Below, piece after piece: positions 20,759 through 54,971 of a DNA stretch of 64,000 nucleotides. Position 1 is the first letter of the stretch; each line of letters opens with the position of its first letter. Where the stretch lies: the IMG/VR virus record IMGVR_UViG_3300042310_000427, positions 1 to 64,000 of that record; one strand, written 5' to 3'. The notes beneath the pieces are model-generated. The model was not told the DNA's origin, made no database searches, and saw only the letters and a list, made by a program, of their open reading frames with translations. This DNA is from a virus. The translations under genes were made by a program, and so were the position numbers.

Positions 20759-20787
20759 ACAACCTATTATAATAATGTGTTAATTTG
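20759..20787 (+). promoter_or_regulatory. ACAACC-type late promoter for scaffold and capsid
   Basis: ACAACCTATT starts at 20759 and the -7 box TTAATTTG ends at 20787. The same ACAACCTATT lies at the identical 28-base offset before 27282 and 54971. The ATG of the scaffold gene follows at 20806. It lies directly after a strong terminator, as a new late promoter would. Confidence 0.7.
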
Positions 20788-20805
20788 CACTTAAATTACA
20801 TACAC

Positions 20806-21990
20806 ATGACCGAGTTAAATGATCAAAAAGCACAATTCTTGCAATCCATAGGAGTAGAACCCAAGGTCACTCCACCTGCAAGTGAACCAATTGAGCCTAC
20901 AGAACCACAAGGGCAAGTAGTGCCAAATGAGCCAATTGTTACGAAAACAACTACAGAACCAACTCCACCTGCACCAACTCAGCCAATAGGGTTGACAGAG
21001 GACATTAAATTACAAGCAATCAATGAGGTGCTTGGAACTAACTACTCAAAATTAGAAGATGCAGTAGAGGCAAAAAACAGAATGATGGGTTATAATGAAC
21101 TTAAAGAGTACAAAGAAAAGTATGATGAGTTAAATTCTAAACCACTTGCAAGTTTTCACTCTAAAACAATTGAGGAGTTAAATAACTTTGCAAAAGTAAC
21201 AGGCATAGATGACCCTACTATTATAAGGTCAGTAAAAGCATTTTCTGAAAAACAAGAAAAAGACCCGATTGAAGCATTAGTATTGGCAGAAATTTTAAAT
21301 GACCCAACACTTGCTGAAAAAAGAGATTTATTGAAAAAACAAATTTCAAGAAAATATAAAATAGAAATTGACGAAGATTTGTATGGTGAAGAATTGGAAA
21401 AAGCGAGAGAGGAATCAGACTTAAGCAAATTCCAATTGGAACGTGATGCAAGCAAGGCAATAAAAAGTATAAGTGAAACTTTGGAAAAGGTGAATACCGA
21501 GAGCAAAGACAATCCTTATAGCAAAACTCAAGAGCAAAAACAAAATCTCAAAGCGCAATGGGATAATGTTATTGTTAGCAACTATGACAAAATTTTTGGT
21601 AAAGTTCCTGTTCAAGTACCGAAGGGAAAGGATGAGAGTGGCAATACCATTTACGAAACCATAGACACAATTGAGTTATCTCCAACCGAGGCTAAACAGT
21701 ATGCTGAACAAGCGGTTAAATCATTGGTTAATTCTGGAACGGAAATAACTGAGGCCAATCTTGTTGATGCGGTTTATCAGCAGCATTTAATGATTCAAGC
21801 GAAACACCTTGAAAAAGTTAAAGACAAAATGTATGCGAAAATCCAAGCAGAGGTTAGATTAAACTTGGAGAAAGAAATCCACAACCCTTCATCCTTAAAG
21901 GGCGGTAACACACCACCACCACAAGCACCTGTTAAAGAGTTTGGAGATAAGATTCTCGAAAAACTTGAAAGCATGAATAGATTGAGCTAA
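20806..21990 (+). CDS. putative capsid scaffold protein
   Basis: 394 aa, between portal and capsid genes. The N-terminal 60 residues are Pro/Thr/Glu-rich and disordered, the middle is charged coiled coil (LDEDLYGEELEKAREESDL region near 180-215), and the end is basic. This is the composition of podovirus scaffold proteins, which guide capsid assembly and leave before packaging. The frame could begin at a TTG at 20785, but that codon lies in the -7 box, so the ATG was chosen. Confidence 0.65.
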   Translation: MTELNDQKAQFLQSIGVEPKVTPPASEPIEPTEPQGQVVPNEPIVTKTTTEPTPPAPTQPIGLTEDIKLQAINEVLGTNYSKLEDAVEAKNRMMGYNELKEYKEKYDELNSKPLASFHSKTIEELNNFAKVTGIDDPTIIRSVKAFSEKQEKDPIEALVLAEILNDPTLAEKRDLLKKQISRKYKIEIDEDLYGEELEKAREESDLSKFQLERDASKAIKSISETLEKVNTESKDNPYSKTQEQKQNLKAQWDNVIVSNYDKIFGKVPVQVPKGKDESGNTIYETIDTIELSPTEAKQYAEQAVKSLVNSGTEITEANLVDAVYQQHLMIQAKHLEKVKDKMYAKIQAEVRLNLEKEIHNPSSLKGGNTPPPQAPVKEFGDKILEKLESMNRLS

Positions 21991-22097
21991 TGGCGTGTCA
22001 ATTGAGGAAATGAAAAAAAAGAAAAAAAGAAAAACAATTTAATTGAAAAGAAAACAAAAAATCAAAATTAACAATAACAATTAAATTAAATTAAAAA

Positions 22098-23489
22098 ATG
22101 GCAGTACCTTCAATAGCCGGAAATTTTCAAACGAATATCGTTTCCGCATTCGACGTTTTAAAACCTGATGTATTATCTAAATTATTCAAACAATATGGTG
22201 ATCAAGGTTTAAATTGGTTTTTAACATTAAACCAATTAGGGTTCGTAAACCCAGTAGCAAATCAAATCTTCAATCACTATGAAGATGATTTGAAAAATCC
22301 AACATTTACTGCAAGAGCATTGGTTGCACAACCAGCAGCAGGAGCAGCTTTATTGGTAACATTAGCAGCAGTTGATGTTGACACTAACAACAATTTCTAC
22401 CCAAGAGTAGGTGACCAAGTTTACTTTAAAGGTGGACAAACAGGTATCATCACTTCAATTAACGTAAGTACACCAGCACAACCGGTATTAACTATCAGTC
22501 CTGTGTCTGCAACTTACCAATTGCCAGGTGTTGCTTTAGGTGAAGAAATGAGTATTATATCTGGTGCATTCTCTGAGGGTTCTAACCAACCTAAAGGTGC
22601 TGTAACAGGTGCAGTAAAAAGAACATTCTACACTCAAATCATTAAAGAAACTATGACAGTTACAGGTAGCCAATTGACTACTCAAACTTGGTTTGATGGT
22701 TGGATTAGCTCTGAGGACATGGTAGGTTCAGGTCAAGTATCAAGCGGTAATAGCTGGTATAACTTGCACATGAGAGATGCTGAGTTCCGTATGGCATTAA
22801 AAACATCAGGTGCATTGTTGTTTGGTGAAGAAGGTGATGGCTCATTAATTGATGCAACAACTGGATTACCAATCTACACTACTCAAGGTTTAATTCCACA
22901 AATTAAAAAATTGGGTATGGAAGAAAACTATACTCCTGGTTCTACTTCATTAGCAGACGTTGATTCTTACAACAGATTGTTAGACAAACAATATGCTGGT
23001 GACTTTGTAATGGGATTATTCTCTCGTCAGTACACAACTGAATTTGAAAACGCCCTATCTACTTTCTTAGCAAACACTAACATCAATTATGTTGAAAGCC
23101 AAGTCGCTTCAAGATATGGTGAAAGTGCTAAATCTATCTGTACTGATTTCAGTTCTGTAAAAAGAGGAGGAAGAACATTTATGTATCAAACATTTATGGA
23201 GTTCTCTAACAGACAAACTGTAGGTATTGCAGGTTCAGTAGCAGAATCTTATGGTGTGTTCTTACCAATGATGACCAAAACAGATACTAAAACCAAACAA
23301 GTTGTAAATAACGTAGGTGCAAGATACAAAGCACTTGATGGTTACAGCAGAAAAATGGAAGTATGGTCAGTTAATGGTGCAGGTCCTGGTTTAAAAGTAT
23401 CTCAATCAGACTTGAACAACACTTACTTAAGAAGTGAAATTGGCGCACACCAATTAGGTGTAAACCAAATGTTATTAGTATCAGCGTAA
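22098..23489 (+). CDS. major capsid protein
   Basis: 463 aa, following the scaffold gene. It begins MAVPSIAGNFQTNIVSAFDV and contains a long beta-rich N-terminal half (VGDQVYFKGGQTGIITSINV) and a C-terminal half with RQTVGIAGSVAESYGVFLPM. Size, place and the absence of signal peptide fit an HK97-fold capsid protein of the crAss-like or Cellulophaga podovirus kind. Synonymous codon use is T/A-ending as in its neighbours. A strong terminator follows, consistent with high separate expression. The fold is inferred. Confidence 0.8.
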   Translation: MAVPSIAGNFQTNIVSAFDVLKPDVLSKLFKQYGDQGLNWFLTLNQLGFVNPVANQIFNHYEDDLKNPTFTARALVAQPAAGAALLVTLAAVDVDTNNNFYPRVGDQVYFKGGQTGIITSINVSTPAQPVLTISPVSATYQLPGVALGEEMSIISGAFSEGSNQPKGAVTGAVKRTFYTQIIKETMTVTGSQLTTQTWFDGWISSEDMVGSGQVSSGNSWYNLHMRDAEFRMALKTSGALLFGEEGDGSLIDATTGLPIYTTQGLIPQIKKLGMEENYTPGSTSLADVDSYNRLLDKQYAGDFVMGLFSRQYTTEFENALSTFLANTNINYVESQVASRYGESAKSICTDFSSVKRGGRTFMYQTFMEFSNRQTVGIAGSVAESYGVFLPMMTKTDTKTKQVVNNVGARYKALDGYSRKMEVWSVNGAGPGLKVSQSDLNNTYLRSEIGAHQLGVNQMLLVSA

Positions 23490-23509
23490 GCATAGACAAA
23501 CTAAATATT

Positions 23510-23539
23510 GTGAGGGATGAAATACTCCCTCACTTTTTT
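23510..23539 (+). terminator. intrinsic terminator after the capsid gene
   Basis: GTGAGGGA (23510-23517) pairs perfectly with TCCCTCAC (23526-23533), followed by six T. The next gene starts 28 bases later with no visible promoter, so it is probably served by readthrough, giving it less transcript than the capsid gene. Confidence 0.85.
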
Positions 23540-23566
23540 AAATTTTAAAAAAACCAATTACACAAC

Positions 23567-24690: not shown

Positions 24691-24718
24691 TTGGTTTAAA
24701 GAAAATGTATTATATTTG
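24690..24718 (+). promoter_or_regulatory. promoter for the 157-aa gene
   Basis: TTTG (24690-24693) then 17 bases and TATATTTG (24711-24718), an exact -7 box with a slightly short spacer. The ATG at 24735 follows 17 bases later. Confidence 0.5.
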
Positions 24719-24734
24719 CACAAACAATCTCACC

Positions 24735-25208
24735 ATGTTAAATTCAAATACTCAAATGTATGTTGATTTATTAGATAAATACAACTACAAACCAATCCAC
24801 TCAGACGACAACACAATTCTTTTTATGTATGAAAAACATACAATGAAAGTGTACCCAAAATTAAACACATTCTTTTATCAAGGCAAAACCTATAAAGGAA
24901 TTGATAAGTTGGAACAAATGTTAAACCCAAGCAAAATTGAGTTGCCAAAAAATGAAAAATTATATAGAAAAATCATATACATACATCAGGGCAAAAAAAT
25001 AGTACCTAAGAAAGTATCAAGATTAATGGCTTTGTATTATGAGGTATTGGTTACAAATGGATTTGTATGTGAGGTGTTAAAAAGCGAGATACGAATACAA
25101 TTTAAAGGATCAACTATTAAAATATTCCCAAATAAACAATGGCATACAGGCAAAACAATAAAAGATTGTAGGGGTATTGATAATTTATTAAGTCAATTAG
25201 GTATATAA
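24735..25208 (+). CDS. hypothetical protein with two diverged repeats
   Basis: 157 aa starting MLNSNTQMYVDLLDKYNYKP. Residues about 33-65 (HTMKVYPKLNTFFYQGKTYK and GIDKLEQML) and 122-154 (GSTIKIFPNKQWHTGKTIKD and GIDNLLSQL) are two copies of one unit: T-x-K-x-x-P-x-x-x-x-x-x-G-K-T-x-K-G-I-D-x-L. Function unknown. The frame is open further upstream to 24705, but that start lies in the promoter -7 box. It is surrounded by short RNA units. Confidence 0.55.
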   Translation: MLNSNTQMYVDLLDKYNYKPIHSDDNTILFMYEKHTMKVYPKLNTFFYQGKTYKGIDKLEQMLNPSKIELPKNEKLYRKIIYIHQGKKIVPKKVSRLMALYYEVLVTNGFVCEVLKSEIRIQFKGSTIKIFPNKQWHTGKTIKDCRGIDNLLSQLGI

Positions 25209-25301: not shown

Positions 25302-25456
25302 TTTGGAAATATGAAAAATAATATTATCTTTGTACCTGAAACAATAGTTTCACCTTTTGTGTGATAAAAGGACTAAGATATTTAAGATATACAATTTAAC
25401 GATTGTACCATAAAAGTAACCTAATTCTTATCACACAGGAGTTAGGTTCTTTTTTT
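25302..25456 (+). ncRNA. structured RNA with predicted loop-loop interaction
   Basis: A consensus promoter TTTG (25302-25305)-N19-TATCTTTG (25325-25332) starts a transcript of about 115 bases. Four hairpins follow: TGAAAC/GTTTCA (25337-25352), CCTTTT/AAAAGG (25353-25371), TACAAT/ATTGTA (25390-25407) and the terminator AACCTAA/TTAGGTT (25418-25448) before a T-run. The loop of hairpin 2 (GTGTGATAA, 25359-25367, running into the stem) is complementary over 9 bases to TTATCACAC (25428-25436) in the terminator loop. This would form a kissing loop or an alternative fold that could control termination. No reading frame is present. Confidence 0.65.
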
Positions 25457-25795: not shown

Positions 25796-25824
25796 ACAAT
25801 CAATCACAAATTTTCCTACATTTG
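25796..25824 (+). promoter_or_regulatory. ACAACC-type late promoter for the lysis cassette
   Basis: ACAATC (25796-25801) differs from ACAACC by one base and lies exactly 28 bases before the last G of TACATTTG (25817-25824). The holin ATG begins 5 bases later, so its mRNA should be leaderless. Confidence 0.65.
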
Positions 25825-25828
25825 CAAC

Positions 25829-26071
25829 ATGAATGATTTTTTAAATACCGCAATAGGCAGTTGGTTAAAAGTTTACATAACTGGCGTTTTAATGTTTGTT
25901 GTTGCCAATGGTGGAATACGAAGCATTGATTGGGTAACTGCATTAGAGGCAACCTTAGTCAGTTCATTGCCTGTTTTAATTAATTACCTTAATCCAAAAG
26001 ATACAAGGTATGGTAGTAAGAAAAAAATAGAAGATTTTAAACCTGAAAAAACAGATAAAATAACAGAATGA
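25829..26071 (+). CDS. putative holin
   Basis: 80 aa with two membrane helices, about residues 12-30 (WLKVYITGVLMFVVANGGI) and 36-53 (WVTALEATLVSSLPVLIN), separated by the turn RSIDW, then a charged tail. The arrangement resembles r1t-type phage holins. It would form the inner-membrane lesion that triggers lysis and frees the amidase. It is first in the lysis cassette, overlapping the amidase gene by 4 bases, with a leaderless late promoter. Confidence 0.75.
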   Translation: MNDFLNTAIGSWLKVYITGVLMFVVANGGIRSIDWVTALEATLVSSLPVLINYLNPKDTRYGSKKKIEDFKPEKTDKITE

Positions 26072-27253: not shown

Positions 27254-27282
27254 ACAACCTATTTTATAAATGCTTAAATTTG
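27254..27282 (+). promoter_or_regulatory. ACAACC-type late promoter for the tail operon
   Basis: ACAACCTATT from 27254; TAAATTTG ends at 27282, the same 28-base offset as at 20759 and 54943. It lies 7 bases after the spanin stop and 20 bases before the tail fibre gene. Confidence 0.75.
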
Positions 27283-27301: not shown

Positions 27302-29506
27302 ATGGCATTTTCAGCATCAAACCTCAATATTGAATTAGTCTATGATTTATCAAATAGCCCAAAAGATTTTAAATTAATAGATAATACAGACTACACCGCA
27401 GAAACATATTCTAATGTTTTAGGATTATTAAGGGCGGTTGATCCAAGTGGTTTACAATTTTACAATAATGTAAATTATGGCTCACCAGATATTGATTATG
27501 GTGTGTCTGATGAATCTTCTTTCTTAGGAAGTTTACCATTAGAAAACTCATTAGTTAAAAATGGCATCTATAATTTTACTTACACAGTAAAGATTGAAGA
27601 TATGTTACAATCACATCTTGTGGTATCAAGTAACATAGCAGCCAAAACCTTTACAGTATTAGGCAATATTGCAAGTCAAATTACAGATGCAACAGCAGCA
27701 GGGTGGGAGATAATTGATGCAGGAACAACCGCATTAACAATTGTATCGGCAACTTATTCAGCAACAACCGGACTAACAACCGTAACCGTTAATGAAACAT
27801 TACCAAGTTTATCAACACTTGCAGAGTTCCAATTCACAGTAGATGTGATTTACTCAAAAGCATTTTCACAAAATTATACTTACCAATCTCCAGAAGTTTG
27901 TATCAATTGGACATCTGAGGAATGTTCCTCAAGCATGACCATTACAGATATAACTGCATACCCAAGTGGTGCATCAATCACAAGGCTACATACAGTTAAA
28001 TATCCAGAAGGAATGTTAGTTCCTGAATCAGATGTAGTAAGTCCATTACAAACATTTAGCATTAGTCCAATTTGGACAGGCACATGGGTGAATGTATTTA
28101 CCGCAGATGTGGATACTGCCAATGGGATTATAACAATCATTGACGAGCTTAGAAGCGTAAAAAGATTTACCGTAAGTGCATCACAAACATTATGTGAGGT
28201 GTCAAGTTGCTTGTCAAATATGGCAACCAAATATGCTCAGTATTTAGTGTCAGCACCAAACAAAGCATTGGAAATGGCTAAGTTTATTAACCAGGCAAGT
28301 GCAGCGTTTATGGCATACACCGCAGCAAAACAATGTGGCCAAGATGATTGTGATATTTACTTAGATATAATACTTGCAACTGCAACCCAATGTGGATGTG
28401 GATGTAACGATTGTGGTCCATGTGATGACCAAACACCAACACAAATAGTAGGGTGTTGCCAAAATGTAGGTGGAAGTGGAAATACAATATTAATAATCTC
28501 AACAGATGGTAGTATTACAATCTCATCCAATACAGTAGGAACAACAACCACATTTGATATTGAAATAAATGGCGCATTTGTAACCAACCTTGCCGAGCAA
28601 GCAATAGCAGCAGCAAGTATTAATGATTTGCTTGATGTAAACACAGGCAATATAGCAGCAGCCAATGGACAAGCATTAATATGGAGTGCAGGCACAAGCA
28701 GATGGGTAAGAGGTTCAGTAATCGGTTCACTTGTAACATTAACCGATGTTGACGATACAGGACTTGCAAACGGAATGGTTCTTTATTGGGATAACGCAAC
28801 CTCAACCTTTAAGTTTAGATTAGAAACAGTACCTAATTTGAATGATTTGGGAGATGTAACAATTACAAGTGTTGCAAACGGACAAATTATAAAATGGAAT
28901 GGAAGTGCATGGGTAAACACAGCCAACACTTATAGATTATTAGGCGATGTAAACGATAGTGGACTTGCCAATGGAAACTCATTTAAGTGGGATAGCGGAA
29001 CAAGTAGATTTATACCATTTGCACCTAAATTAACTCTTGCAGCATTAGATGATGTTGCAGCAAGTTTAGTAGGTGTAGGAAACAGAATACAATATAATTC
29101 AGGAACAGCTCTTTGGGATGGAATAGGAATACCAAGTGTAAGTTCACTATTAAGTTACCAAGCAGGGTTTGCAGCAGGAACAACAGCAGGTTTTAGTAAT
29201 GCAGGTGCATTCTTTGACCCTGTTACTGGCATTGTAACACTAATCGGAGTTATTACAAACTCAGGTGGTGCAGCATTAATACCTACATGGGTGGCAAGTG
29301 TACCAACCGCAATGATACCGGCAGTAGAAGTTCCTATTACAATACATGTTGGAATAGGCGCAACATCATACATTGCCATGGGTTCAATAGCAGCAGGTAC
29401 AGGAAACATTGTAATATCTAAACACTACACAGGTGCAGCCATTGTAAATGGTATTCCGGCAGGTGGATTATGCTTAGAAGGAATCTCTTACAGATTAAAT
29501 AGATAA
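27302..29506 (+). CDS. putative tail fibre / receptor-binding protein with repeats
   Basis: 734 aa. Residues 1-330 are beta-rich with Cys-paired sections; about 350-395 is a Cys-rich stretch (TQCGCGCNDCGPCDDQTPTQ). From about 440 to 625 come five copies of a roughly 30-residue fibre repeat of the form L-x-D-V-x-x-x-G-x-A-N-G-x-x-L-x-W-x-x-x-T-S-x-x-x. The final 120 residues are a compact Ala/Gly-rich domain likely to bind the receptor. The repeat type is common in phage fibres, in which each unit adds a turn of beta structure. First gene of the tail operon. Confidence 0.65.
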   Translation: MAFSASNLNIELVYDLSNSPKDFKLIDNTDYTAETYSNVLGLLRAVDPSGLQFYNNVNYGSPDIDYGVSDESSFLGSLPLENSLVKNGIYNFTYTVKIEDMLQSHLVVSSNIAAKTFTVLGNIASQITDATAAGWEIIDAGTTALTIVSATYSATTGLTTVTVNETLPSLSTLAEFQFTVDVIYSKAFSQNYTYQSPEVCINWTSEECSSSMTITDITAYPSGASITRLHTVKYPEGMLVPESDVVSPLQTFSISPIWTGTWVNVFTADVDTANGIITIIDELRSVKRFTVSASQTLCEVSSCLSNMATKYAQYLVSAPNKALEMAKFINQASAAFMAYTAAKQCGQDDCDIYLDIILATATQCGCGCNDCGPCDDQTPTQIVGCCQNVGGSGNTILIISTDGSITISSNTVGTTTTFDIEINGAFVTNLAEQAIAAASINDLLDVNTGNIAAANGQALIWSAGTSRWVRGSVIGSLVTLTDVDDTGLANGMVLYWDNATSTFKFRLETVPNLNDLGDVTITSVANGQIIKWNGSAWVNTANTYRLLGDVNDSGLANGNSFKWDSGTSRFIPFAPKLTLAALDDVAASLVGVGNRIQYNSGTALWDGIGIPSVSSLLSYQAGFAAGTTAGFSNAGAFFDPVTGIVTLIGVITNSGGAALIPTWVASVPTAMIPAVEVPITIHVGIGATSYIAMGSIAAGTGNIVISKHYTGAAIVNGIPAGGLCLEGISYRLNR

Positions 29507-35438: not shown

Positions 35439-35467
35439 ACAAACAAATAAAGAATTGGTTATTTTTG
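35439..35467 (+). promoter_or_regulatory. candidate ACAACC-type promoter for internal virion genes
   Basis: ACAAAC (35439-35444) matches ACAACC at five of six positions and sits exactly 28 bases before the last G of TATTTTTG (35460-35467). The gene at 35490 follows. Confidence 0.55.
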
Positions 35468-37769: not shown

Positions 37770-40700
37770 ATGCCAGATAGAAAGAAATTACTACAAGATT
37801 TTTACGCAAAATATGCGCCCGACCAAGAATTATCAGACGAAAGATTAAGTGCTATTGATAAAAAGTATGGTAACAATAATGAACAATTATTGCGTGATTT
37901 TTACGCAAAATATGCACCCGACCAAGAGGTAACTCCCGAAAGGATTGATGCTATAAATAAGAAGTATCAATTAAATACCACTCCACCAACCGAACCTCCA
38001 ATACAAAAAACAGGCACTTACGAACCACGCAACAAGGTGGCAGAAATGCTTAACCAACCAACCTCTCAAGATATTCAAAGAGAGAAAAGGGGGATAGGTA
38101 CACAAAAGGAAGTTGTATCAGGAACTAAGGCTCCTGAAATAAAAGTAAAAACAGAAGATGTAGAAAAGTTTATAGAAAACAAAGCTACAGAATCGGCTTA
38201 CATTGGAACAAAGCAAGAAGCGGAAGGAAAGGGTTTAAAAAACACACTTGACTTATTCCCTGAAAAATCAGACAACATTGCCAACTACCTAAATGAAGAA
38301 TCTAAGGTAGAATATAATTTCTTAAAAGCATTAGAGAATTATGGTAGAGAGGTTAATGAACTAACCGCAAGAACAGGGGCAACAGGCAATCCTCAAACAC
38401 AAGCTGACCTACAAAAAGCTAAGTTCAACAAATATAAAACACAAGTAGAGTTAGAAAAGTTTACCAAACAAAGAAATGCTAAAATTGATGAGGCTATTAC
38501 CTTAAACGAAAATCTAATAAACTATTTGACCGCACAAGGTGATAGTGAAGAAAAAATTGCCGATGCACAAAAAGAAATTGTAAGACTACAATCTCAAAAA
38601 GAAAACTACCTTCAAAATCCTGACCAAAAAATAATGTCTGTATTTTCTGCAAACAAGCAGGAGATGGATGAGTTTAAAGTTCCGGGCAATACACCAAGAG
38701 AAAGAGTAAAAAACTATGCCTTAATTGTTAATAGACAAATTGAGGAAATTGATGAGAAAATAAAAACAAAGTTCCCGGGTGAACCATTGGAAAAACCATC
38801 ATGGACAGGTGGCTATAAAATGGCAACAAGAAGCCCTGAGCTTGAAGTTTTGTGGGAAAGAAAAATGAAATTAACTCCTAAGATGCAAGCCTTAGCGCAA
38901 GTTGCATTGGTGGATAGAATGCCTACAAAAACAACAGGCGGATTTATAGGTTCTATGTTTGATGCAATAAGTAAAGAGTTATTACCTGATAAAATGACCC
39001 AAACAAACTTGAAAGATTTGTCTATACAAGATGTCGGTAAAATTATTGAGAAAAACCAAATTGCAATGGGATTGACTGATGAAATGGTAAAAGAAAGTGC
39101 AGTAAAACAAACAAAAGAATTGCAAACACCAACTGAGTTTTTCTCAGCAGAAGGTATGGGTAATTTGTTTGGAACATCTTTATCAATGATACCTGCATTC
39201 ACATTAGGTAACAAAGCTACGGCAGCAATGAAGATACCTCAAATGATAAGAATGGCAAGGATGGCATCTACAACTACTAAGTATGGTAAGTATTTAGTAC
39301 CAACCTTAAAAGCATCTCAGCAAGGTATTGAATATGCTATGGCAAAACCATTTTTACAACAAGAAGAACTTAAAGACGAGGCTAATTTCCTATCAGGGTT
39401 CTTAGGTGCGGTACTATCAAAACCAGTTGAAAAAGCATTATCTGCAAAAAATATTCAATCAATGATTGGAAGTTTGTTTGGCGAAAAAGCACCAATAGTC
39501 GTTAATCAATTGACTGTATTGGGGAATAAAGTAGCAAATGGATTTGGGGAATATGGTTCAGAGGTGGGTGAAACTGTAGGTAGTATTGCACAAACATATT
39601 TAGAAACTAAAAACTTTGCAGAACTTAAAAAATCTTTAAACGAGCAATTTGGATCATTAGAGCCAAACATGGAATTATTTGTAGGTTCTGTAGTAATGGG
39701 TTTCTTTATGGGTAGCGGCACAGGAATTGGTGATGCAGCAATAAATAAATCAAAAGAGGTTTATGCAGCAATGACCCCTGAACAAAAGAAAACCGCAGAT
39801 GAAATCTTAAAGCAATTTAAAGATGATTTAGAAGTATCAGAAGTAAATGCTAAAAGACAAGAAATTGCAGAAGGCGATGCACCACCAAAAGTAGAGGAAG
39901 TAACAGAAGTTGACCTTCAAAATAAACAAGCAGCCATAGAGGTAATACAATCTCCAACTACAAGTATAAAAGAAAAAGCAGAGGCAGCAAAGATTGTAAG
40001 AGATATTGAAGCCAAAGAAAGAGAAGTAAAAATTACTGAAAAAGCATTAGAGCAAGGACCATTAGCAGAAGGTGAAGTTGTAAAAGAGGAAGTGGTAGAA
40101 ACGCCTAAAGAGGAAGTTGTAAAAGAAACTCCAATGGCAGAGGAAACTAAAGTAGGTGAATTGGTTGTTACTGATGAAGTAAAGGACATAAAAGACGAAG
40201 TTACCGATGAAAAAATAGGAGAAAAAAAATATCAAAGCTTTAGTATTGATTTTGAAGATGGTGCAAGAGCAATCGGTACTATTGAAAACGGAGTTGCAAG
40301 TATATCGGGAATCAATGCACCTAAAGCAGAAGGTAGTGCAATTGAGCCAAAAAGAGGAACTAAAACATACGAAAGAGTAATTTCCAAGTTAAAAGAAAGT
40401 GGCGTAAAAACTATTTCAGTTAAACTGCAATCAACCGATAGCGAAAAAGCTATTGACAAATTAGTTGAAAAGGGAATACTTACCAATCCAAGAGATATTA
40501 GAGGAGGTAGTTTTAATCAAAGGCCAACAACATTTGATATATCCGAACAACCTACCACACCCAAAGAAGTAACTCCTATAACACCCAAAGCAGGTAGTGT
40601 TGGTGTAGGGGGAGATGTTACCGAAGCCGAAAAAATGCAATTTGGTGCAGGGTATAAAGATTATAATTTTAAAAAAGAAAATGTACCTATTTCAAAAATT

Positions 40701-43700
40701 AGAATAACTGAACAACCATCTTTATCAGAAAGAAAAGATTTGGTAGAAGATATTAAAAAGAATGGGATAAAAGAACCTATTGTAGTTGAGTACGATAAAG
40801 AAAGCGATACATACTATGTAAAAAATGGTAACAATAGGGCTGCAATAGCCAAAGAATTAGGCATTACAGAAGTACCAACTATTATTGCTGAATACAAAAA
40901 ACAATCCCTCAAAGAAACACCCAAAGAAGTAACTCCTACAACTCCTATCTTAAAAGAAGAAGGTAAGATAGAGGATAAGATAGAGGAAGCGCCTAAAGAG
41001 GTGGTTGAAGCAAAAGTGGAGGGAGTGAAGATTGCTAAAACAAACAATATAAACGGATATGAATTTACAGACACGCCATCACTAAAAGATGTTATCGTAA
41101 AAACAGTTCCTAAAGAAAACTTAGTTACAGTAGAATCTGATATTTTTTTAACAGAAAATAAAAATTCATTAGCAGAAGGTGTAAAGAATGAAGGCGGTGG
41201 ATGGTATAGCATGAAACAAAATGCAGGAGCAGAAGTGTTTTTGTATAACGATATAACCAAAGAGGGAGTGGTTTTAACCGAAAAAAAGGGAGGAACAATG
41301 GGCGTTGTTGTGCAAGATTTTATCAAAAACAATAGCAGAGAAGCTGCCACCACAACCCAAAACAAACCTTCTCAAACCCCCTTATCTGAACAAAAAGGCC
41401 AAAACAAGGTAGAAACTCCTAAAAAAGAATCCTTAAAAGAACAAAAGCCGAAAGCTAAAGCTGAGATAAAAGCAGAGAAGGAAGCAGAAATAAAAGATAG
41501 ACTATTAGATAGATTAGCAGCGTACAATAGCCTATCAACATATCAGCAAAACACTCAAAAAAATAGAGATGAAATAGTAGATATTTTTGGTGTTGCAAGT
41601 AAATACAAATTTACCATAGCAGATGCCAATGTTAAAAGCACCAAGCAATCAAAAAAATACGAACTATTTAAAGATGGCAAAAAGCAAACAAGAACAAAGG
41701 TTGCAACAGAAACTACTAAAGCAACACCTGAACAAGTAAAAGTTGCAGAGAGATTAATAGACAAAGATATGGTAACTATGTGGGATGGTAGTCCATACAC
41801 GCCTCACTTAGATGCAGTATCTTATGGAATAACATGGCAACAGATAAGAAAAGGTGAGCAAGATATTAAAAATGGCAAAGTTGATTCTGTGCCTGCAAGA
41901 AAGTTAATAGAAGTATTAAATCAAATAGAAGCAGATGGCATGGTAAATTTAGTATCAGGCTCAGGTTCTATGATGCAAAGAGATGGATATAAACTAAGCG
42001 AAGCAAGACAAGCAAACAGAGAAATACCAGAACTAACAGATGAGGACATTGCAGAAATAAATGCCAATGAAGATGCACTTGCAAAAGAATATGACGAGTG
42101 GTTTGAATCACTATCAGAAGAAGAACAAATAAATATATTAGAAGAAAATGAAAACAGAAATCAAAACGAGATTGAACAATCTCCCGAAAGCAGAGAAGGC
42201 AAAAAGGATGTTTCTAATGAAAAAGATGGAACAAGAGAAAGCCTCCAAGAAAAAGTAGCCGAAGCAGAGAAAGACCTAAAATCAGCACAAAACAAACTAT
42301 CTAAGGCAAGACAATCTCAAGATGAGATAGGCAAAGAACAGCAAGTAAATATTTTTGGCAATAAACCTGCCGATAATAAATTGTTTGGTGCAGATGTATC
42401 AATTGCAGAAAAACAAATTAAAAAACTACAAGATGAGGTAGATGCTGCAAAAGAAAACTTAGATAAAGCAAAGGCTGAATTAGATAATGTTGTTCCTGCT
42501 AATCAAATGCAAATGGGATTGGAGGGGGAAAGCGAAACAGCAGACCCATTAAAAAATGTAGAAAACACAGCAAAGGCGTTAGAGGGTATAGATAATTTTA
42601 AGGAAAGATTTTTAGAGTTTTTTGCACCAATTGTAAATAACATAAAAAAAGAACTTCCCAAATTTGCAGGCAAGGATAAATCAGCAAAAATTGTTGTTAT
42701 AAATAAAGGTGGATTTATTGGCGACCCTATAACATTTTACAGAAATGGCAAATTATACAAAGGGCAAACTAAAGAAGTAAAGCAAACTATAAAATCAAGG
42801 GCAGATGGTAAGCCAACACAACAAGAAATAAATGAAGCGTTATCTAAAATTGATGATAAAAACCTATTCAATGTTGTTGTGTCAAATGAATTTGGTGATG
42901 TAGTTTTAAGAGGCGACTTGGTAGTAAGTCCAAAAGAAGTAAGCATAGAGGATGCACAAGCGGAATTAGATATTCTAAACGAATCAAAAGCCTTTGCATC
43001 CGAAAAAATATTAAACACACCTCAAGGTATTTCCGAAGCATACCATAAAGCAAAGGCAGATGGAAGTAACCCAAAACTTGTTCAAGCAGTAGAGGATGCG
43101 GTATCTCAATCCACCGAACAAGCCCTAAAAGACACCATTGCCAAAGAATTAAATAAATCAGCAAATGAATTGGGTTCCTTTAATATTGGTTCTACAAAAC
43201 TATGGCTTAGTATGGCTAAACTTATGGGATTGTATTCTAAAAAAGGAGTTACTAAGTTTGGTGATTTTATTAAAGCAACAGGATATAAAGCTACATCAGC
43301 ACTTAAAAGCCTATGGGATGCCATTAGAAATAGAAAACAAACTACAATAAGTAAATCAGTTAAGAATGCTAAGTTAAGAACTCTTAATGCAAGGGTACTG
43401 TTCTATGAGGCACTAATTGGTGTTGACCCTCTTGCAGATGGACAAACACAATTAGATGACATTAAAAATACCATAGCAACCTATAAAACACTTGCCATAC
43501 ATGCAAATAAGAATGAAGTACAAGATGTAATCAATGCAGTAGATGCACTAAGTGATTTGTATATTGAATTGTCAGCAGACTTAAATACAGTTAAAGATAA
43601 GATTGCAAGTCAAGCAGCTAATGGACAGCAAGCAATTGAACTTAAAGAAGATTTAACTACAGTAGGTAAACTGATTGAATCCTTTGCAGATGATTTTAAG

Positions 43701-46358
43701 TGGCAAGAAAAAGTACAAAACGAGATTGAAAAAGTAAAAGGCACATTGCCGGATGACATGAATCCTTATATGCAAAAGGATATAAGCATAGGTAGAGTAG
43801 AGAATACTATATCCGAAATGATGCAAAAGATTTTTGGCAAAAGATATGGTCAACTTAAAACAAACAAGAAGGGTGAAAAATCATTGTTTGAAAGAGCAGC
43901 CCAAGATAAAATAAGCCAAGAAGATTTAGATTTCTTTATGTATGTCCAACACGCAAAAGAGAGAAATGCAAGGGTTGAGGCAGCTAAAATAATAGAAAAA
44001 ACACAAGCAATACAAGAGGCTCAAGATAGATTAGCAGACCTTGTAACTCAAGACCAAACAAATCCATCAGTAAAAGCTCAGACTACTATGGCCAAACAAG
44101 CATTATCAGAGGCTCAATCAATGGCGATTGTTACAGATGGTAGTGGTATGAGTAACGAGGAAGCAGACAGGTTTATGCAAGAGTTTGAAAAGTCAGGTAA
44201 AGTGCCAAAACTTGAGGAGTACGCCAAAGAGTACAGAGAAACGGTAATTAAGCCAATGATTGACATGATGGAGGAAGGCAACTTATTAGATGCCGACCAA
44301 GCAGAAATGTTAAGAACTGGTATGGATAAAAAGACAGGTGTTAAATTTGATTACTATGTTCCATTAAAAGTAGAAAAAGAAGCATTAGAACAATCTCAAG
44401 GAACGGTTGCATCAGCAAGTCCAACATTACTTAATCCAATTAAATCTATAAAAGGAACATCAAAGTATGATTATGTAAAAAGGATTAGTCCAATAGCGCA
44501 ATCAATATCAGATTTCCAAGCAGCAGCAAAATCGGTAGAGGATAATAAAACCGCACAATCTTTATACAAATTAGTAAAAGAAAATCCTAATAAAGATATT
44601 TGGGAAATAGTATCACCAACCTTTATGCCTAATGCTGATGGTATTCCAATAAACCAAACAGCACAAGATGTAAAAGACAGTTCTATTCCGGTTAAAATTG
44701 ATGGCAAACTAAAATACATTAAATTAAACCATAAAGGATTAAGGGAAGCATGGATGAGAAAGCAATCAAATCCGGAATACATTTGGAGATTATTACTTAA
44801 TGTATTTAGAACATACAATAACTTTAAAAGAAAAGTATTGACACAATTCTCTCCTGAGTTTGCATTAGTGAATTTAATTAGGGATGTGCAAGATGCGGTG
44901 TTTAATAGCTCAGGTGTTGATATTCCATTCTTAGGGAAACAAATTATAGGTAACTTACCGAAAGCCAATGCAACAGCAGCAAAAGCGATATATGGTAACT
45001 TAGACCCTGATTCCGACATGGGCAAAACACTTGACCTATACCTTGCAAGTGGTGGTAAAATATCTTGGGCTAATTACAATGCAATAGAGGATGTTCAAAA
45101 AGAAATAGACCAAATGACTGCCAAGTTTAGTGATGACAAATCATTAGGGTATTATGGCAAGAATGTGTTTAACAAAGTGGTTGCTACAATAGGTTCATTT
45201 AACGAAACGGTTGAAACAGGAACAAGGCTTGCAACATTTAAAGCGTTAATAGATAATGGCATTACCCCTGAAAAGGCAGCATCAATATCCAAGAACATGA
45301 CTGTAAACTTTAATAAAAGAGGAACAGCCACACCATTATTAAACGCAGCTTATTTGTTTAGTAATGCAGGGATTCAATCAATATATGTAGGCGCAAAAGG
45401 ATTGGTAAAATCTAAAAAAACACAAAGATATGCAGCTTATATGATGCTAACAGGTGCAGCAATTCCATTTATACAACAAATGATGATAGCAGCAGTATCG
45501 GAAAGTGATGAGGAAGAAAAAGAATACAAGCAATTATTAACAGATGAGGATAATACTAACTTCATTGTTATACCAACTGGTAAAAAACAATTTTTAAGAA
45601 TATCCAAATCTTATGGTATGATAAAAGTGTTCTTAAATTCAGGACAAGAATTAGGTAGTGCAATGATTGATGGTAAGATTTCTGAACATTCAGCTAATAT
45701 TGTTTCAACAATACTAAGTGTAATTGACCCAATAGCAGGTAGCTCACAAAACACATTATCAGCAGTTGCACCTACCACATTAAGACCATTTGTAGAGGTA
45801 TTGATGTTAAATAGAAATTACCAAAATGCGCCTATTTATCCGGAAGATAGATTTGGGCCTGAATCAGCAGACTATTTAAAATTCTACCCTAAAACAGCAG
45901 ACTTTTATAAAAACTTTGCAGAAAACATGTATTTTAAATCAGGTAGCAACATTGATGTATCTCCCGAAACATTAGAATACATTGTAAATGATTTCTTTAG
46001 TGGTATATTCAGAACAGGGGAAAACTTTATAGTAGCAGGCTCACAACTTGCCCAAGGCAAAGAGGTTGACCCTAACAAAATACCATTCAAATCTAAATTT
46101 ATAGTAGATATGTCCGAGCAAGATTGGAGATACACTAAAGATTTCTGGACAATTTATAATAATTCTGAAAAGGTGTTATACCAAAAAGAAGAAATTGAGG
46201 AAGTGATTAAATTGGTAATGAAGCTTGATGCCAAAAGAATAAAAGAGAATGGTCCAGAGGCGGTTAAGGACATGCAAAAGAAAGTAGATTTAATCTACGA
46301 AGGCCAAGAAAAACTAAAAGAAAGAAAAGAAGCATTTGAAAAGAAACAACAAAACTAA
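37770..46358 (+). CDS. giant polyvalent protein (2862 aa) with ParB-like and LPD38-like domains
   Basis: Domains in order: two copies of a 33-residue repeat (LLQDFYAKYAPDQELSDERL and LLRDFYAKYAPDQEVTPERI) at the N-terminus; helical regions; Glu/Lys-rich linkers near 740-800; a ParB/sulfiredoxin-like segment about 970-1045 (VPISKIRITEQ, DLVEDIKKNGIKEPIVVEYD, YYVKNGNNRAAIAKELGITE); long coiled coil about 1490-1600; and at about 2360-2620 a block (FSPEFALVNLIRD, ETVETGTRLATFKALIDNGI, TVNFNKRGTATPLLNAAYLF, SNAGIQSIYVGAKGL) matching LPD38 of phage polyvalent proteins, with a hydrophobic stretch (YAAYMMLTGAAIPFIQQMMI). Such proteins are carried in the virion and enter the cell with the DNA. Roles of the domains are inferred. 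Confidence 0.75.
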   Translation: MPDRKKLLQDFYAKYAPDQELSDERLSAIDKKYGNNNEQLLRDFYAKYAPDQEVTPERIDAINKKYQLNTTPPTEPPIQKTGTYEPRNKVAEMLNQPTSQDIQREKRGIGTQKEVVSGTKAPEIKVKTEDVEKFIENKATESAYIGTKQEAEGKGLKNTLDLFPEKSDNIANYLNEESKVEYNFLKALENYGREVNELTARTGATGNPQTQADLQKAKFNKYKTQVELEKFTKQRNAKIDEAITLNENLINYLTAQGDSEEKIADAQKEIVRLQSQKENYLQNPDQKIMSVFSANKQEMDEFKVPGNTPRERVKNYALIVNRQIEEIDEKIKTKFPGEPLEKPSWTGGYKMATRSPELEVLWERKMKLTPKMQALAQVALVDRMPTKTTGGFIGSMFDAISKELLPDKMTQTNLKDLSIQDVGKIIEKNQIAMGLTDEMVKESAVKQTKELQTPTEFFSAEGMGNLFGTSLSMIPAFTLGNKATAAMKIPQMIRMARMASTTTKYGKYLVPTLKASQQGIEYAMAKPFLQQEELKDEANFLSGFLGAVLSKPVEKALSAKNIQSMIGSLFGEKAPIVVNQLTVLGNKVANGFGEYGSEVGETVGSIAQTYLETKNFAELKKSLNEQFGSLEPNMELFVGSVVMGFFMGSGTGIGDAAINKSKEVYAAMTPEQKKTADEILKQFKDDLEVSEVNAKRQEIAEGDAPPKVEEVTEVDLQNKQAAIEVIQSPTTSIKEKAEAAKIVRDIEAKEREVKITEKALEQGPLAEGEVVKEEVVETPKEEVVKETPMAEETKVGELVVTDEVKDIKDEVTDEKIGEKKYQSFSIDFEDGARAIGTIENGVASISGINAPKAEGSAIEPKRGTKTYERVISKLKESGVKTISVKLQSTDSEKAIDKLVEKGILTNPRDIRGGSFNQRPTTFDISEQPTTPKEVTPITPKAGSVGVGGDVTEAEKMQFGAGYKDYNFKKENVPISKIRITEQPSLSERKDLVEDIKKNGIKEPIVVEYDKESDTYYVKNGNNRAAIAKELGITEVPTIIAEYKKQSLKETPKEVTPTTPILKEEGKIEDKIEEAPKEVVEAKVEGVKIAKTNNINGYEFTDTPSLKDVIVKTVPKENLVTVESDIFLTENKNSLAEGVKNEGGGWYSMKQNAGAEVFLYNDITKEGVVLTEKKGGTMGVVVQDFIKNNSREAATTTQNKPSQTPLSEQKGQNKVETPKKESLKEQKPKAKAEIKAEKEAEIKDRLLDRLAAYNSLSTYQQNTQKNRDEIVDIFGVASKYKFTIADANVKSTKQSKKYELFKDGKKQTRTKVATETTKATPEQVKVAERLIDKDMVTMWDGSPYTPHLDAVSYGITWQQIRKGEQDIKNGKVDSVPARKLIEVLNQIEADGMVNLVSGSGSMMQRDGYKLSEARQANREIPELTDEDIAEINANEDALAKEYDEWFESLSEEEQINILEENENRNQNEIEQSPESREGKKDVSNEKDGTRESLQEKVAEAEKDLKSAQNKLSKARQSQDEIGKEQQVNIFGNKPADNKLFGADVSIAEKQIKKLQDEVDAAKENLDKAKAELDNVVPANQMQMGLEGESETADPLKNVENTAKALEGIDNFKERFLEFFAPIVNNIKKELPKFAGKDKSAKIVVINKGGFIGDPITFYRNGKLYKGQTKEVKQTIKSRADGKPTQQEINEALSKIDDKNLFNVVVSNEFGDVVLRGDLVVSPKEVSIEDAQAELDILNESKAFASEKILNTPQGISEAYHKAKADGSNPKLVQAVEDAVSQSTEQALKDTIAKELNKSANELGSFNIGSTKLWLSMAKLMGLYSKKGVTKFGDFIKATGYKATSALKSLWDAIRNRKQTTISKSVKNAKLRTLNARVLFYEALIGVDPLADGQTQLDDIKNTIATYKTLAIHANKNEVQDVINAVDALSDLYIELSADLNTVKDKIASQAANGQQAIELKEDLTTVGKLIESFADDFKWQEKVQNEIEKVKGTLPDDMNPYMQKDISIGRVENTISEMMQKIFGKRYGQLKTNKKGEKSLFERAAQDKISQEDLDFFMYVQHAKERNARVEAAKIIEKTQAIQEAQDRLADLVTQDQTNPSVKAQTTMAKQALSEAQSMAIVTDGSGMSNEEADRFMQEFEKSGKVPKLEEYAKEYRETVIKPMIDMMEEGNLLDADQAEMLRTGMDKKTGVKFDYYVPLKVEKEALEQSQGTVASASPTLLNPIKSIKGTSKYDYVKRISPIAQSISDFQAAAKSVEDNKTAQSLYKLVKENPNKDIWEIVSPTFMPNADGIPINQTAQDVKDSSIPVKIDGKLKYIKLNHKGLREAWMRKQSNPEYIWRLLLNVFRTYNNFKRKVLTQFSPEFALVNLIRDVQDAVFNSSGVDIPFLGKQIIGNLPKANATAAKAIYGNLDPDSDMGKTLDLYLASGGKISWANYNAIEDVQKEIDQMTAKFSDDKSLGYYGKNVFNKVVATIGSFNETVETGTRLATFKALIDNGITPEKAASISKNMTVNFNKRGTATPLLNAAYLFSNAGIQSIYVGAKGLVKSKKTQRYAAYMMLTGAAIPFIQQMMIAAVSESDEEEKEYKQLLTDEDNTNFIVIPTGKKQFLRISKSYGMIKVFLNSGQELGSAMIDGKISEHSANIVSTILSVIDPIAGSSQNTLSAVAPTTLRPFVEVLMLNRNYQNAPIYPEDRFGPESADYLKFYPKTADFYKNFAENMYFKSGSNIDVSPETLEYIVNDFFSGIFRTGENFIVAGSQLAQGKEVDPNKIPFKSKFIVDMSEQDWRYTKDFWTIYNNSEKVLYQKEEIEEVIKLVMKLDAKRIKENGPEAVKDMQKKVDLIYEGQEKLKERKEAFEKKQQN

Positions 46359-46374
46359 CTAAACATTATATTTG
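46346..46374 (+). promoter_or_regulatory. candidate ACAACC-type promoter for the second fibre cluster
   Basis: ACAACA (46346-46351) lies exactly 28 bases before the last G of TATATTTG (46367-46374), five of six matching ACAACC. The gene at 46385 follows by 11 bases, so its leader is very short. Confidence 0.55.
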
Positions 46375-46384: not shown

Positions 46385-47785
46385 ATGATAAGACTTAACA
46401 CCCCTATAGAATCTATTGTAATTAATCTCCAATCAGCAGGGGAAATTAACTATAACATACAATATGTATTTGTAAGGAATGGTGTTACATTAAATAAATC
46501 AGTTGAAGGAATACTTACCACAAGCGGACAACACCAAGTTTTAATCAATGATTACTCAAGTGGATATTTTGATATTACCTATCTGAATATTACTAACATT
46601 GACCCGGCACAGAATTACATAAGTGTCCTTAAAAAAACAAATGTCAATGAAACTAATCTTACCTCAGAGGCAATAGGACTTAAAAACAGAGAGTGTATTG
46701 AGTTTACCTCAGAAAGTGGATTTAAGACATTAGATCAAAACGGTAGTTTTAAAACAATTACTTCAAGTGTAGCAGCAGATGGTGATGTTCAAAATAGCGA
46801 TATGTCTTACATGGCAACCGTTCCAAGTGCTGGAAGCTTAACATTGCCAGATAGCCAAATAAATGTAAATGGTATTGATGAAGGAGATGTTGTAAGTGTT
46901 AAAACTATTGATGTCAATTTAACAGATGGTGTAAATCCGGTAGTTCCAAGTGCAATAAGCTTAGTGGGAAATACTCTTGAATTGACAGTATTATCATCAG
47001 GAGGGGGCGATGTTGATGTTGAAATAAATGGCGTTCCTTATGATACTATAACAGCCCCTGCAACAGTGGATGTTCCTGTAATAAATAGTGCATCAACACC
47101 TGTTGGTACAATTGTAGGAATAAATGTTGAAATAGGAAATAGTACAGCAGTAATTAAAAATAGCGCAGGAACAACAATTAAAACAGAGGCAATACCGGCA
47201 GCAACTTCCGAAAATATAACTATAATCAATAGTACAGTCAATGTTAGAAAAAGTGATGCTACATTGATAAGTGCAGTTACTGTACTTGCAGAAGGTTCAG
47301 CAAACTATAATGTTGCAGACAGTACCGCAGTTATTAAGAATAGCGCAGGAACGACTCTTAAATCTGAGGGAATACTTGCAGCTACATCAGAAAACATTAC
47401 TATTAATGATTCAACGGCAGTTATAAAAGACTCCGCAGGAACGACATTAAAATCCGAAAACATACTTGCAGAGGCATCGGAAAATATCACAATAAATGAT
47501 AGTGTAGCGGTATTAAAAGATACTGCAATGGTAACTCTTGATACAGTAAATATTTTAGCAGAAGATACTGAAAACATTGTATTAGATGATTTCAATGTGG
47601 AGGTAGAGGACCCTTTAGGGAGTGTTATTTTAACTGATAGTTATTTAGCATACTCTATGAATACTCTTAATTTAACTGCCCTTTCAAATGCCAATGTAGT
47701 AATTGGAAGTGCAACATCAATAACAATAAGCGCAACTGCACCATTAACACCTACACTAGGCGATATATGGTTTCAACCTAATTAA
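46385..47785 (+). CDS. repeat-rich tail fibre or adhesin protein
   Basis: 466 aa. N-terminal 120 residues beta-rich; about 155-215 a module (TLPDSQINVNGIDEGDVVSV, TIDVNLTDGVNPVVPSAISL) almost matching one in the gene at 50773; then from about 250 to 405 some five copies of a roughly 29-residue unit of the form D-S-T-A-V-I-K-N-S-A-G-T-T-L-K-S-E-x-I-L-A-x-x-S-E-N-I-T-I. Repeats of this type make long beta fibres. The nearest-neighbour copies differ by few residues, consistent with recent expansion. Confidence 0.6.
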   Translation: MIRLNTPIESIVINLQSAGEINYNIQYVFVRNGVTLNKSVEGILTTSGQHQVLINDYSSGYFDITYLNITNIDPAQNYISVLKKTNVNETNLTSEAIGLKNRECIEFTSESGFKTLDQNGSFKTITSSVAADGDVQNSDMSYMATVPSAGSLTLPDSQINVNGIDEGDVVSVKTIDVNLTDGVNPVVPSAISLVGNTLELTVLSSGGGDVDVEINGVPYDTITAPATVDVPVINSASTPVGTIVGINVEIGNSTAVIKNSAGTTIKTEAIPAATSENITIINSTVNVRKSDATLISAVTVLAEGSANYNVADSTAVIKNSAGTTLKSEGILAATSENITINDSTAVIKDSAGTTLKSENILAEASENITINDSVAVLKDTAMVTLDTVNILAEDTENIVLDDFNVEVEDPLGSVILTDSYLAYSMNTLNLTALSNANVVIGSATSITISATAPLTPTLGDIWFQPN

Positions 47786-52424: not shown

Positions 52425-52453
52425 ACAACCTAAGATATTTTTAATTATTTTTG
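52425..52453 (+). promoter_or_regulatory. ACAACC-type late promoter
   Basis: ACAACCTA from 52425 and TATTTTTG ending at 52453 keep the 28-base offset. The ATG at 52458 lies 5 bases after the -7 box, so this mRNA should be leaderless. Confidence 0.7.
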
Positions 52454-52457
52454 CCTT

Positions 52458-52982
52458 ATGCAAATAGTATTAGTCCACAGCCCATTCAGTTTTAAAAGAC
52501 CACTTTCATTAATTGGTTGGGCTATAAGGAAAGTTACCAGAACTTATTGGAATCATGCTTCACTATTAGTTAATATTCATGGCACTAAAATGATTTTAGA
52601 ATCTGATATTAAAGGTGTGGTTGCTATACCATTTAAAGAATGGGCAAAGGAGCAAGAAATTGCAATCTATGATTTTGACTATGGCCAAAAGGAAATATCT
52701 AAGGCATGGAGTAAGGTAGGCCACACAAAATATGACTTTGCGTCATTATTGTGGTTTGGATTAGTAAGAAGTGTAACCGGCAAGTATTACGGTTATACGG
52801 TTGAAAGAAAAGCAGCAAAAAGATTTTATTGCTATGAGTATTTGGCATGGGTAATGGGTATGGATAACTACTATAACATATTACCACACGAGTTCATTAA
52901 GCACTTGGAGAATGAGGGGTTAGTGCCATTACATGTTGAACCTATTAAAGCCAAAGACTTAATTGATGAAAAGATGGATTAG
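52458..52982 (+). CDS. permuted NlpC/P60 (papain-fold) hydrolase-like protein
   Basis: 174 aa. WNHASLLV (about residues 32-39) holds the catalytic histidine and FYCYEYLAWVMG (about 129-140) the catalytic cysteine, in the His-then-Cys order of circularly permuted NlpC/P60 (YiiX-like) proteins; the usual C-S-E is C-Y-E here. Members cut peptide or amide bonds in peptidoglycan or act on lipids. Having its own late, leaderless promoter, it could act in lysis or in DNA entry. The target is not known. Confidence 0.6.
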   Translation: MQIVLVHSPFSFKRPLSLIGWAIRKVTRTYWNHASLLVNIHGTKMILESDIKGVVAIPFKEWAKEQEIAIYDFDYGQKEISKAWSKVGHTKYDFASLLWFGLVRSVTGKYYGYTVERKAAKRFYCYEYLAWVMGMDNYYNILPHEFIKHLENEGLVPLHVEPIKAKDLIDEKMD

Positions 52983-53528: not shown

Positions 53529-53541
53529 ACAAATAAATATC

Positions 53542-53823: not shown

Positions 53824-53829
53824 TAACTT

Positions 53830-54261
53830 ATGCCAAAAGTTTGTTTGGTTGAGGATTGTAGTAATTACATCTTTGGTAAAGGATATTGCCGTAACCACCA
53901 ATATTTGCGTACTGATAGTAAAAAGCCTAAACCTATTAGTGCGATTTCCAAGAAGAAACAACAATTAAAAGCAGATCCATTATCTAAATCTGAGATTGAT
54001 ATTTTTAATGAGATATGGAATGAAAGGCCACATATAAGTGAACTATCTGGTAATCCACTGCCTTACGATAAGAACAATATGTCAATGTGGGTATGTCAAT
54101 TCTTGCATGTAATACCTAAAGGGATGTCGCCTAAACTGAGATTAGATAAAAGAAATATAATGCTCGGAACACCTGATGAACATAATCACCAAGATAGGTA
54201 TAACAACTTTAAGGTTAGAAAATTTGAATTACTTAGACAGATGTATGGGAAGGATGATTAG
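53830..54261 (+). CDS. NinG/HNH-like endonuclease candidate
   Basis: 143 aa. An N-terminal zinc-finger-like cluster CLVEDC...GYCRNH (Cys5, Cys10, Cys20, His23) is followed by a basic linker and a region SELSGNPLPYD, CQFLHVIPKG, RNIMLGTPDEHNHQDR. The order of a C-x-G-x-x-L turn, H-x-x-P-K-G and N-x-x-x-x-x-x-x-H-x-x-x-D resembles phage NinG/Rap and HNH recombination nucleases. Such enzymes resolve branched DNA. Convergent with the gene at 54258, sharing 4 bases. Confidence 0.55.
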   Translation: MPKVCLVEDCSNYIFGKGYCRNHQYLRTDSKKPKPISAISKKKQQLKADPLSKSEIDIFNEIWNERPHISELSGNPLPYDKNNMSMWVCQFLHVIPKGMSPKLRLDKRNIMLGTPDEHNHQDRYNNFKVRKFELLRQMYGKDD

Positions 54262-54500
54262 GATATTTCATCAGGCTTATTAAGCTCGGCAATCCTATCT
54301 ACTATAATTTGCTTAAAATCATAGTTCTTTTGGTAAAGCTGATTTTCTTTTAAAATATCATCTATTGTAGTTTTCCCTTCTTTAATATCTACAAGGTCAA
54401 CCATTGCTAAAATAGAAATGTAAGTTTCGTCTTTCTCGAAACTAATATTAAGGGTCGCTAATGCAGCCTTAAAATAACTTAATCTTTCTGTGTTTTTCAT
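54258..54500 (-). CDS. hypothetical protein (80 aa)
   Basis: Helical, acidic: MKNTERLSYFKAALATLNIS. It overlaps the upstream HTH gene by ATGA. Not recognised. End of the leftward operon. Confidence 0.5.
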   Translation of the reverse strand: MKNTERLSYFKAALATLNISFEKDETYISILAMVDLVDIKEGKTTIDDILKENQLYQKNYDFKQIIVDRIAELNKPDEIS

Positions 54501-54853
54501 TTTATCTTACTTAGTATATAATTCCTTGCAATATCATCCACCAAAATAAATGTTCTACCATTAGTATCGGTAGATTCTGGGAATGGCACAACAGTGGTTA
54601 ATCTTAAATTAAGGGAACCATCTCTTTTAGCGTAAGGGGAGATTGCATTTCTAATGCGTGATTCACCTACCTTACATAATAAAGCCATTTGTTGAACAGT
54701 TATAATATCCCACTTTAAAACCAACTTTACTTCTTCAAAAGATAGCCCTGAATACTCAGATAGGCTTTTTATCTCATCATCGTGCCACCTTCCAGGCTCC
54801 AAGTGATGATACTTTTCAAGATTTAAAGTTGGCTTTTCCAAAGCGGTATTCAT
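54497..54853 (-). CDS. putative HTH regulator
   Basis: 118 aa. TVQQMALLCKVGESRIRNAI (about residues 53-72) has helix-turn-helix spacing, with a hydrophobic helix, a G turn and a recognition helix. The start at MNTALEK follows ACACACC and a -7 box; a longer frame to 54919 is open but lies upstream of the promoter. It divides a rightward structural-type gene from the leftward block and has palindromic half-sites in its upstream region, so it could be autoregulated. Confidence 0.55.
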   Translation of the reverse strand: MNTALEKPTLNLEKYHHLEPGRWHDDEIKSLSEYSGLSFEEVKLVLKWDIITVQQMALLCKVGESRIRNAISPYAKRDGSLNLRLTTVVPFPESTDTNGRTFILVDDIARNYILSKIK

Positions 54854-54864
54854 GGTGTGTGGTG

Positions 54865-54922
54865 CAAATATAACACTTATTTCAATAAAGTGATAAAAAA
54901 AATTAATTATTTTCATCACTTT
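54865..54922 (-). promoter_or_regulatory. promoter with candidate operator half-sites
   Basis: CAAATATA (54865-54872) on plus is TATATTTG on minus, 12 bases from the ATG at 54853. Upstream, AAAGTGAT (about 54889-54896) and ATCACTTT (about 54915-54922) form an inverted repeat, with a further CACTT near 54875. A dimeric HTH protein could bind these and block the promoter. Confidence 0.5.
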
Positions 54923-54942
54923 TAGGTTTTAAAATAAAAATA

Positions 54943-54971
54943 ACAACCTATTATTTTTGTTCTTAAATTTG
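54943..54971 (+). promoter_or_regulatory. ACAACC-type late promoter
   Basis: ACAACCTATT from 54943; TAAATTTG ends at 54971, identical in box and spacing to the tail promoter at 27254. It drives a single gene ending in a strong terminator. Confidence 0.75.

Follow-up and report, generated by a model that had tools for sequence, protein, structure and literature searches.

The sequence of a 64-kb stretch of phage DNA, here called the window, strongly supports a late-gene promoter class in which the -33 element is substituted and the -7 element is kept. The element lies at one fixed spacing and on one strand before late genes; it is conserved among related phages and restricted to their clade. 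The late class is supported because of its spacing, its strand, its placement before orthologous genes, its absence from outgroup phages and the lack of any excess in host-order genomes. Together these features suggest that, in this group of uncultured phages of Bacteroidota-type hosts, the host RNA polymerase is steered to the virion genes by a protein of the phage, and from them we infer promoter function, the use of host sigma-A and a phage-encoded factor, for which there is a candidate.

The window belongs to an IMG/VR virus record of 66,370 bp, whose phage is designated G000. Its genes form a structural module like that of short-tailed phages (terminase phrog_6681, portal phrog_6547, virion structural proteins and an endolysin), and no tRNA genes were found. 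In terminase or portal, identity is only 20-30% to the nearest isolates, all of them on Flavobacteriia: Elemovirus, Pervagoviridae (phi38:1), phi18:3-type Cellulophaga phages, Tenacibaculum Gundel and Maribacter Panino. The -7 box and these distant isolate relatives point to a host within the Flavobacteriia.

Sites and anatomy of the element

The seven sites reported by the first-pass annotation are all present on the plus strand, and in each the final G of the -7 box lies 28 bases after the start of the ACAACC-like box. These putative late promoters precede a 394-aa capsid-associated gene at 20806 (20759-20787; ACAACC with TTAATTTG), the lysis genes, comprising an 80-aa ORF at 25829 and the endolysin at 26068 (25796-25824; ACAATC with TACATTTG), a 734-aa gene at 27302 with ring and tail genes (27254-27282; ACAACC with TAAATTTG), a 262-aa gene at 35490 with genes of 491 and 2862 aa (35439-35467; ACAAAC with TATTTTTG), a 466-aa gene at 46385 (46346-46374; ACAACA with TATATTTG), a 174-aa gene at 52458 (52425-52453; ACAACC with TATTTTTG) and a 207-aa gene at 55004 (54943-54971; ACAACC with TAAATTTG). 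As that annotation had it, the match to ACAACC is exact at 20759, 27254, 52425 and 54943 and one base off at 25796, 35439 and 46346. Its list was incomplete, missing an eighth site at 18200-18228 (+; ACAAGG at 18200-18205, TATTTTTG at 18221-18228). This site reads AACAAGG...TATTTTTG and lies within the end of the terminase gene, with the portal gene 19 bases further on; orthologous sites are found in G001, G002, G012, G013, G016, G017 and G020.

Among the seven reported sites, that at 20759 is the sole one whose -7 box, TTAATTTG, deviates from TAnnTTTG. None of the seven has TTG or TTTG at about -33, a position taken by AACAAC. Terminator-like hairpins lie directly upstream of the 20759 promoter (20696-20724) and upstream of the 25796 promoter (25418-25448), an arrangement consistent with separate transcription units. 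Within the late region, an accessory 167-aa gene with no relative in the clade (24705-25208, +) lies behind TAnnTTTG boxes that have TTG upstream but lack AACAAC; at the matching place in G013 (31319) stands another gene, whose promoter has TTTG.

The flavobacterial sigma-A box, as mapped in Flavobacterium psychrophilum, is TAnnTTTG at -12 to -5 (PMC9723704), and the numbering of the -7 box used here follows that start-site map. On this scale AACAAC-N-(T/A)-A occupies -34 to -26, and its ACAAC starts exactly 21 bp before TAnnTTTG. A logo of 38 sites reads (T/A)AACAAC(C/A)(T/A)A at -35 to -26 and TAnnTTTG(C/T) at -12 to -4; the box part is asymmetric, with no palindrome. TAnnTTTG is present at -12 to -5 in 35 of the 38, the remaining three having T at -11. 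The A at -34 occurs in all 38, though it lay outside the criterion by which sites were selected, and the A at -26 in 33. Between orthologous sites, identity is 34% over the upstream 25 bases and 45% in the spacer, and it reaches 97-100% at the selected box positions, a value inflated by the picking of sites by motif.

Leftward genes had been described as carrying TTTG at -33. This holds for three of the seven gene-proximal TAnnTTTG sites on the G000 minus strand (63723, 35407 and 3135), where TTG or TTTG stands at -33, and not for the other four; ACAAC occurs at none of the seven. Further repeated elements accompany -7 boxes in these phages. The sequence TTTTGTCGTAT recurs at 11760-11800 (+) and 35407 (-) in the window, at G012:9061 and at G013:18927; it sits at -33 and again overlapping and following the -7 box (TAGTTTTGTCGTATG), and is perhaps an early promoter or operator class. 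Leftward promoters at G000:65512 (-), G012:2414 (-) and G013:9994 (-), in oriented coordinates, have in common TTTTTAATTG(A/C), placed 24-13 bases upstream of TAAATTTG/TAATTTTGTCG(C/T)A, which differs from both the late class and the plain TTTG -33 type. In G001 (L077-L080; for example oriented 24649, 33702 and 48908) a repeated TTTGCATAGTA occupies the -33 position ahead of a TAnnTTTG box; it may mark an early class or a constitutive one.

Enrichment and distribution among phages

With up to one mismatch allowed in ACAACC and none in TAnnTTTG, the window held six sites, all of them on the plus strand; 400 dinucleotide shuffles averaged 0.28 sites and never exceeded 2. The neighbouring spacings of 20 and 22 gave no sites in the window, and a scan for sigma-70 promoters of the E. 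coli type did not rise above shuffles. A position-weight matrix trained solely on three related phages (G001, G002 and G017) gave its eight highest scores in the 66-kb genome, 19.4 to 28.0, to the seven reported sites and that at 18200; the ninth site scored 13.6, and ten simulated genomes gave at most 16.8. The pattern described by the first-pass annotation is borne out, and more strongly than stated there.

A search of viral contigs with the terminase, portal and nuclease yielded a clade of nine further records, with terminases 61-77% and portals 53-75% identical to those of G000; a scan of a genome collection with the portal alignment returned no relatives. Since G001 and G016, and likewise G017 and G020, are closely related, the independent lineages number about four. 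Across five distinct full genomes, ACAAC at spacing 21 occurs 25 times on the late strand and never on the other strand, and other spacings average 0.39 occurrences each. The enrichment holds in every full-length clade genome taken separately (best k-mer corrected P <= 2.4e-7). The motif is kept upstream of orthologous late genes in G001, G002, G012 and G013. Five further relatives, retrieved by portal or nuclease sequence with the motif left unused, contain 18 sites at no more than one mismatch, on a single strand per record, against three in a reversed control. Absence of the box from the late genes of related phages, which by that annotation would have spoken against the class, is not what was found: the box is present there.

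The comparison took in ten outgroup phages whose terminases do not exceed about 45% identity. While each full-length clade genome has six to eight copies of AACAA-N17-TAnnTTTG on the late strand, each outgroup phage has none or one. The stricter AACAAC-N16-TAnnTTTG matches 25 times in 345 kb of clade phages and not at all in the ten outgroup phages. The isolates phi38:1 and elemoE are without ACAAC at spacing 21. The late-gene TAnnTTTG boxes of outgroup phages seem to be preceded by elements of each lineage's own: TATG-N8-CATA-like in G010 (L113-L116), (T/G)ATAAATnnTAA-like in G009 (L109-L112) and TTGACA in G008 (L105-L108), the last alone among the three being statistically supported.

Proposed mechanism and candidate factors

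We consider it likely that late units are switched on by host sigma-A acting at the -7 box together with a phage factor acting at the -33 box. Under this model, host RNA polymerase with its primary sigma would use sigma region 2 to read TAnnTTTG (-12 to -5), just as it does at the host's own promoters. At -33, a sequence-specific DNA-binding protein encoded by the phage would stand in for sigma region 4, reading AACAAC-N-(T/A)-A (-34 to -26) and contacting the polymerase at one rigid spacing. The units for capsid, lysis, tail, internal proteins and fibres would be switched on in this way. For the role of binder, the leading candidate is a winged-helix protein exclusive to the clade, encoded by the leftward gene 10130-10801.

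An improbable alternative is that host sigma-A alone suffices, AACAAC being just a strong variant contact, whether a bent A-tract or a site for region 4. In favour of this, nothing is missing from the -7 box, and AACAAC overlaps the region 4 position. However, the element is absent from outgroup phages and shows no excess in host-order genomes, and other -7 boxes of the same phages have TTG or TTTG 2-3 bases further upstream. The sharp restriction to late genes also argues for temporal control.

There is likewise a small chance that the phage exploits a factor of the host, either a transcription factor or an alternative sigma, that recognises the box; flavobacterial sigma factors do have boxes near TAnnTTTG, such as motif SM5 (PMC9723704). 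Against this, the composite element showed no excess in 8 Bacteroidota genomes, and in 80 genomes from the same order as a Flavobacteriales member, which may not be the host's order, AACAAC-N16-TAnnTTTG occurred 81 times versus 148 for the reversed control, so that the element is not a general host class. The host genomes were reached with a Bacteroidota sigma-A sequence that served as a probe only; a host-type positive control, CTTTG...TAnnTTTGC, was overly specific and uninformative.

Equally doubtful is a highly divergent phage sigma factor that reads both boxes and replaces sigma-A entirely. Two boxes at one rigid spacing would fit a single protein, and phage sigma factors for late genes exist elsewhere, for example in phiEco32-like phages. 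Yet searches of eight clade genomes with sigma-70 domain profiles gave no match to Sigma70_r2 (PF04542) at E <= 1 and none to Sigma70_r4_2 (PF08281) above cut-off. Such a factor would also need to have copied the consensus of host sigma-A, since that is what the -7 box shows.

Chance, or functionless inheritance of homologous sequence, is very improbable: although the orthologous sites are of common ancestry and the G001/G016 and G017/G020 pairs are close, the element is common to eight non-homologous sites in one genome, its boxes were kept while spacer and flanks diverged, and shuffles and simulations stayed below the observed counts and scores.

The preferred reading, a phage factor at -33 combined with host sigma-A at -7, had originally been proposed as resembling MotA/AsiA. 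The substituted -33 and the kept -7 bear this resemblance out; its protein side fares less well, as neither the MotA C-domain (PF09158) nor AsiA (PF09010) had a match at E <= 1 in eight clade genomes, where no sigma domain was detected either. Three non-structural G000 families are shared by the eight assembled clade genomes and missing from all ten outgroup phages. The first is a winged-helix protein of 223 aa, MarR-like in its predicted fold (10130-10801, -), which is the best candidate for a late activator reading the box, if a tentative one. Its C-terminal half is winged-helix by alignment. The AlphaFold model is of low confidence (mean pLDDT 68.8); Foldseek placed MarR-family regulators best (E 3e-3, TM 0.5-0.6 on target length), the matches in BFVD are helix-turn-helix proteins, and there was no significant Pfam match. 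A profile of this protein run against viral contigs retrieved clade members only, but such restriction is weak evidence because it represents a single phylogenetic event. MarR proteins usually bind palindromes as dimers; the box does not provide the palindromic operator expected of the family, and the asymmetry of its logo is an argument against its being bound simply by a MarR dimer.

The second family, a 187-aa protein (14122-14685, +) with no convincing fold match, is a weaker candidate, either as an alternative or as a partner. The third, a 145-aa protein (13688-14125, +), is nuclease-like or Holliday-junction-resolvase-like; it was dropped as lead regulator on that ground and is probably not the factor. 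A second helix-turn-helix protein (59438-60097) was set aside as a DnaD-like helicase loader. A virion RNA polymerase was sought in the 2862-aa protein (37770-46358, +), which occupies the usual place of giant internal proteins. The Pfam matches of this ORF are LPD38 and a sub-cut-off ParB_N only, a regular expression for an RNAP-like D.D.D motif gave one stray match at residue 2412, and no PDB sequence matched; given the lack of a match to a solved structure, a virion RNA polymerase is not recognised there.

Comparison with known promoter systems

Relative to Bacteroidota sigma-A promoters, which carry TTG (TTTG) at -33, the -7 box is identical and its position is as described for F. psychrophilum (PMC9723704). 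The -33 TTG is replaced here by a new box that lies 2-3 bp closer to -7, at invariant spacing. The host-polymerase part of the proposal resembles what is thought of crAss-like phages, whose structural genes are believed to be transcribed by the host polymerase (PMC10136315); the text of that review does not mention promoters.

The closest parallel in architecture is offered by the middle promoters of T4. There too the host -10 element is kept and a phage box, the MotA box centred near -30/-31 (PMC6755090), replaces the -35 element; both that box and the late-class box are asymmetric and stand at a near-fixed distance (PMC6755090, PMC2988021). The T4 box is (a/t)3TGCTTtA, whereas here the box is AACAAC-N-(T/A)-A and the -7 element is of the Bacteroidota type. 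MotA/AsiA serve middle genes, the class here late genes, and no homologue of either protein was detected. A limited search of an incomplete literature set found no description of this promoter class.

Phage Mu C also governs activator-dependent late promoters that use host polymerase, as proposed here; its regulator family and box architecture are different. Late-gene activation in Bacteroidota phages appears to be largely undescribed. With a promoter class defined by sequence and a few candidate activators named, it is open to direct experimental test. The class would also yield an orthogonal promoter/activator pair for Bacteroidota. That the winged-helix protein founds a new activator family, unrelated to MotA, that appropriates Bacteroidota sigma-A, and that related lineages have evolved -33 boxes of their own, making -33 recognition a swappable module while the -7 box is kept, is a bolder and rather unlikely extension. 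The class suggests that an exchange of -35-type recognition, with the -10-type contact retained, evolved here independently of T4. T4 provides the precedent for the logic; the box, the phages, the host group and the candidate factor differ.
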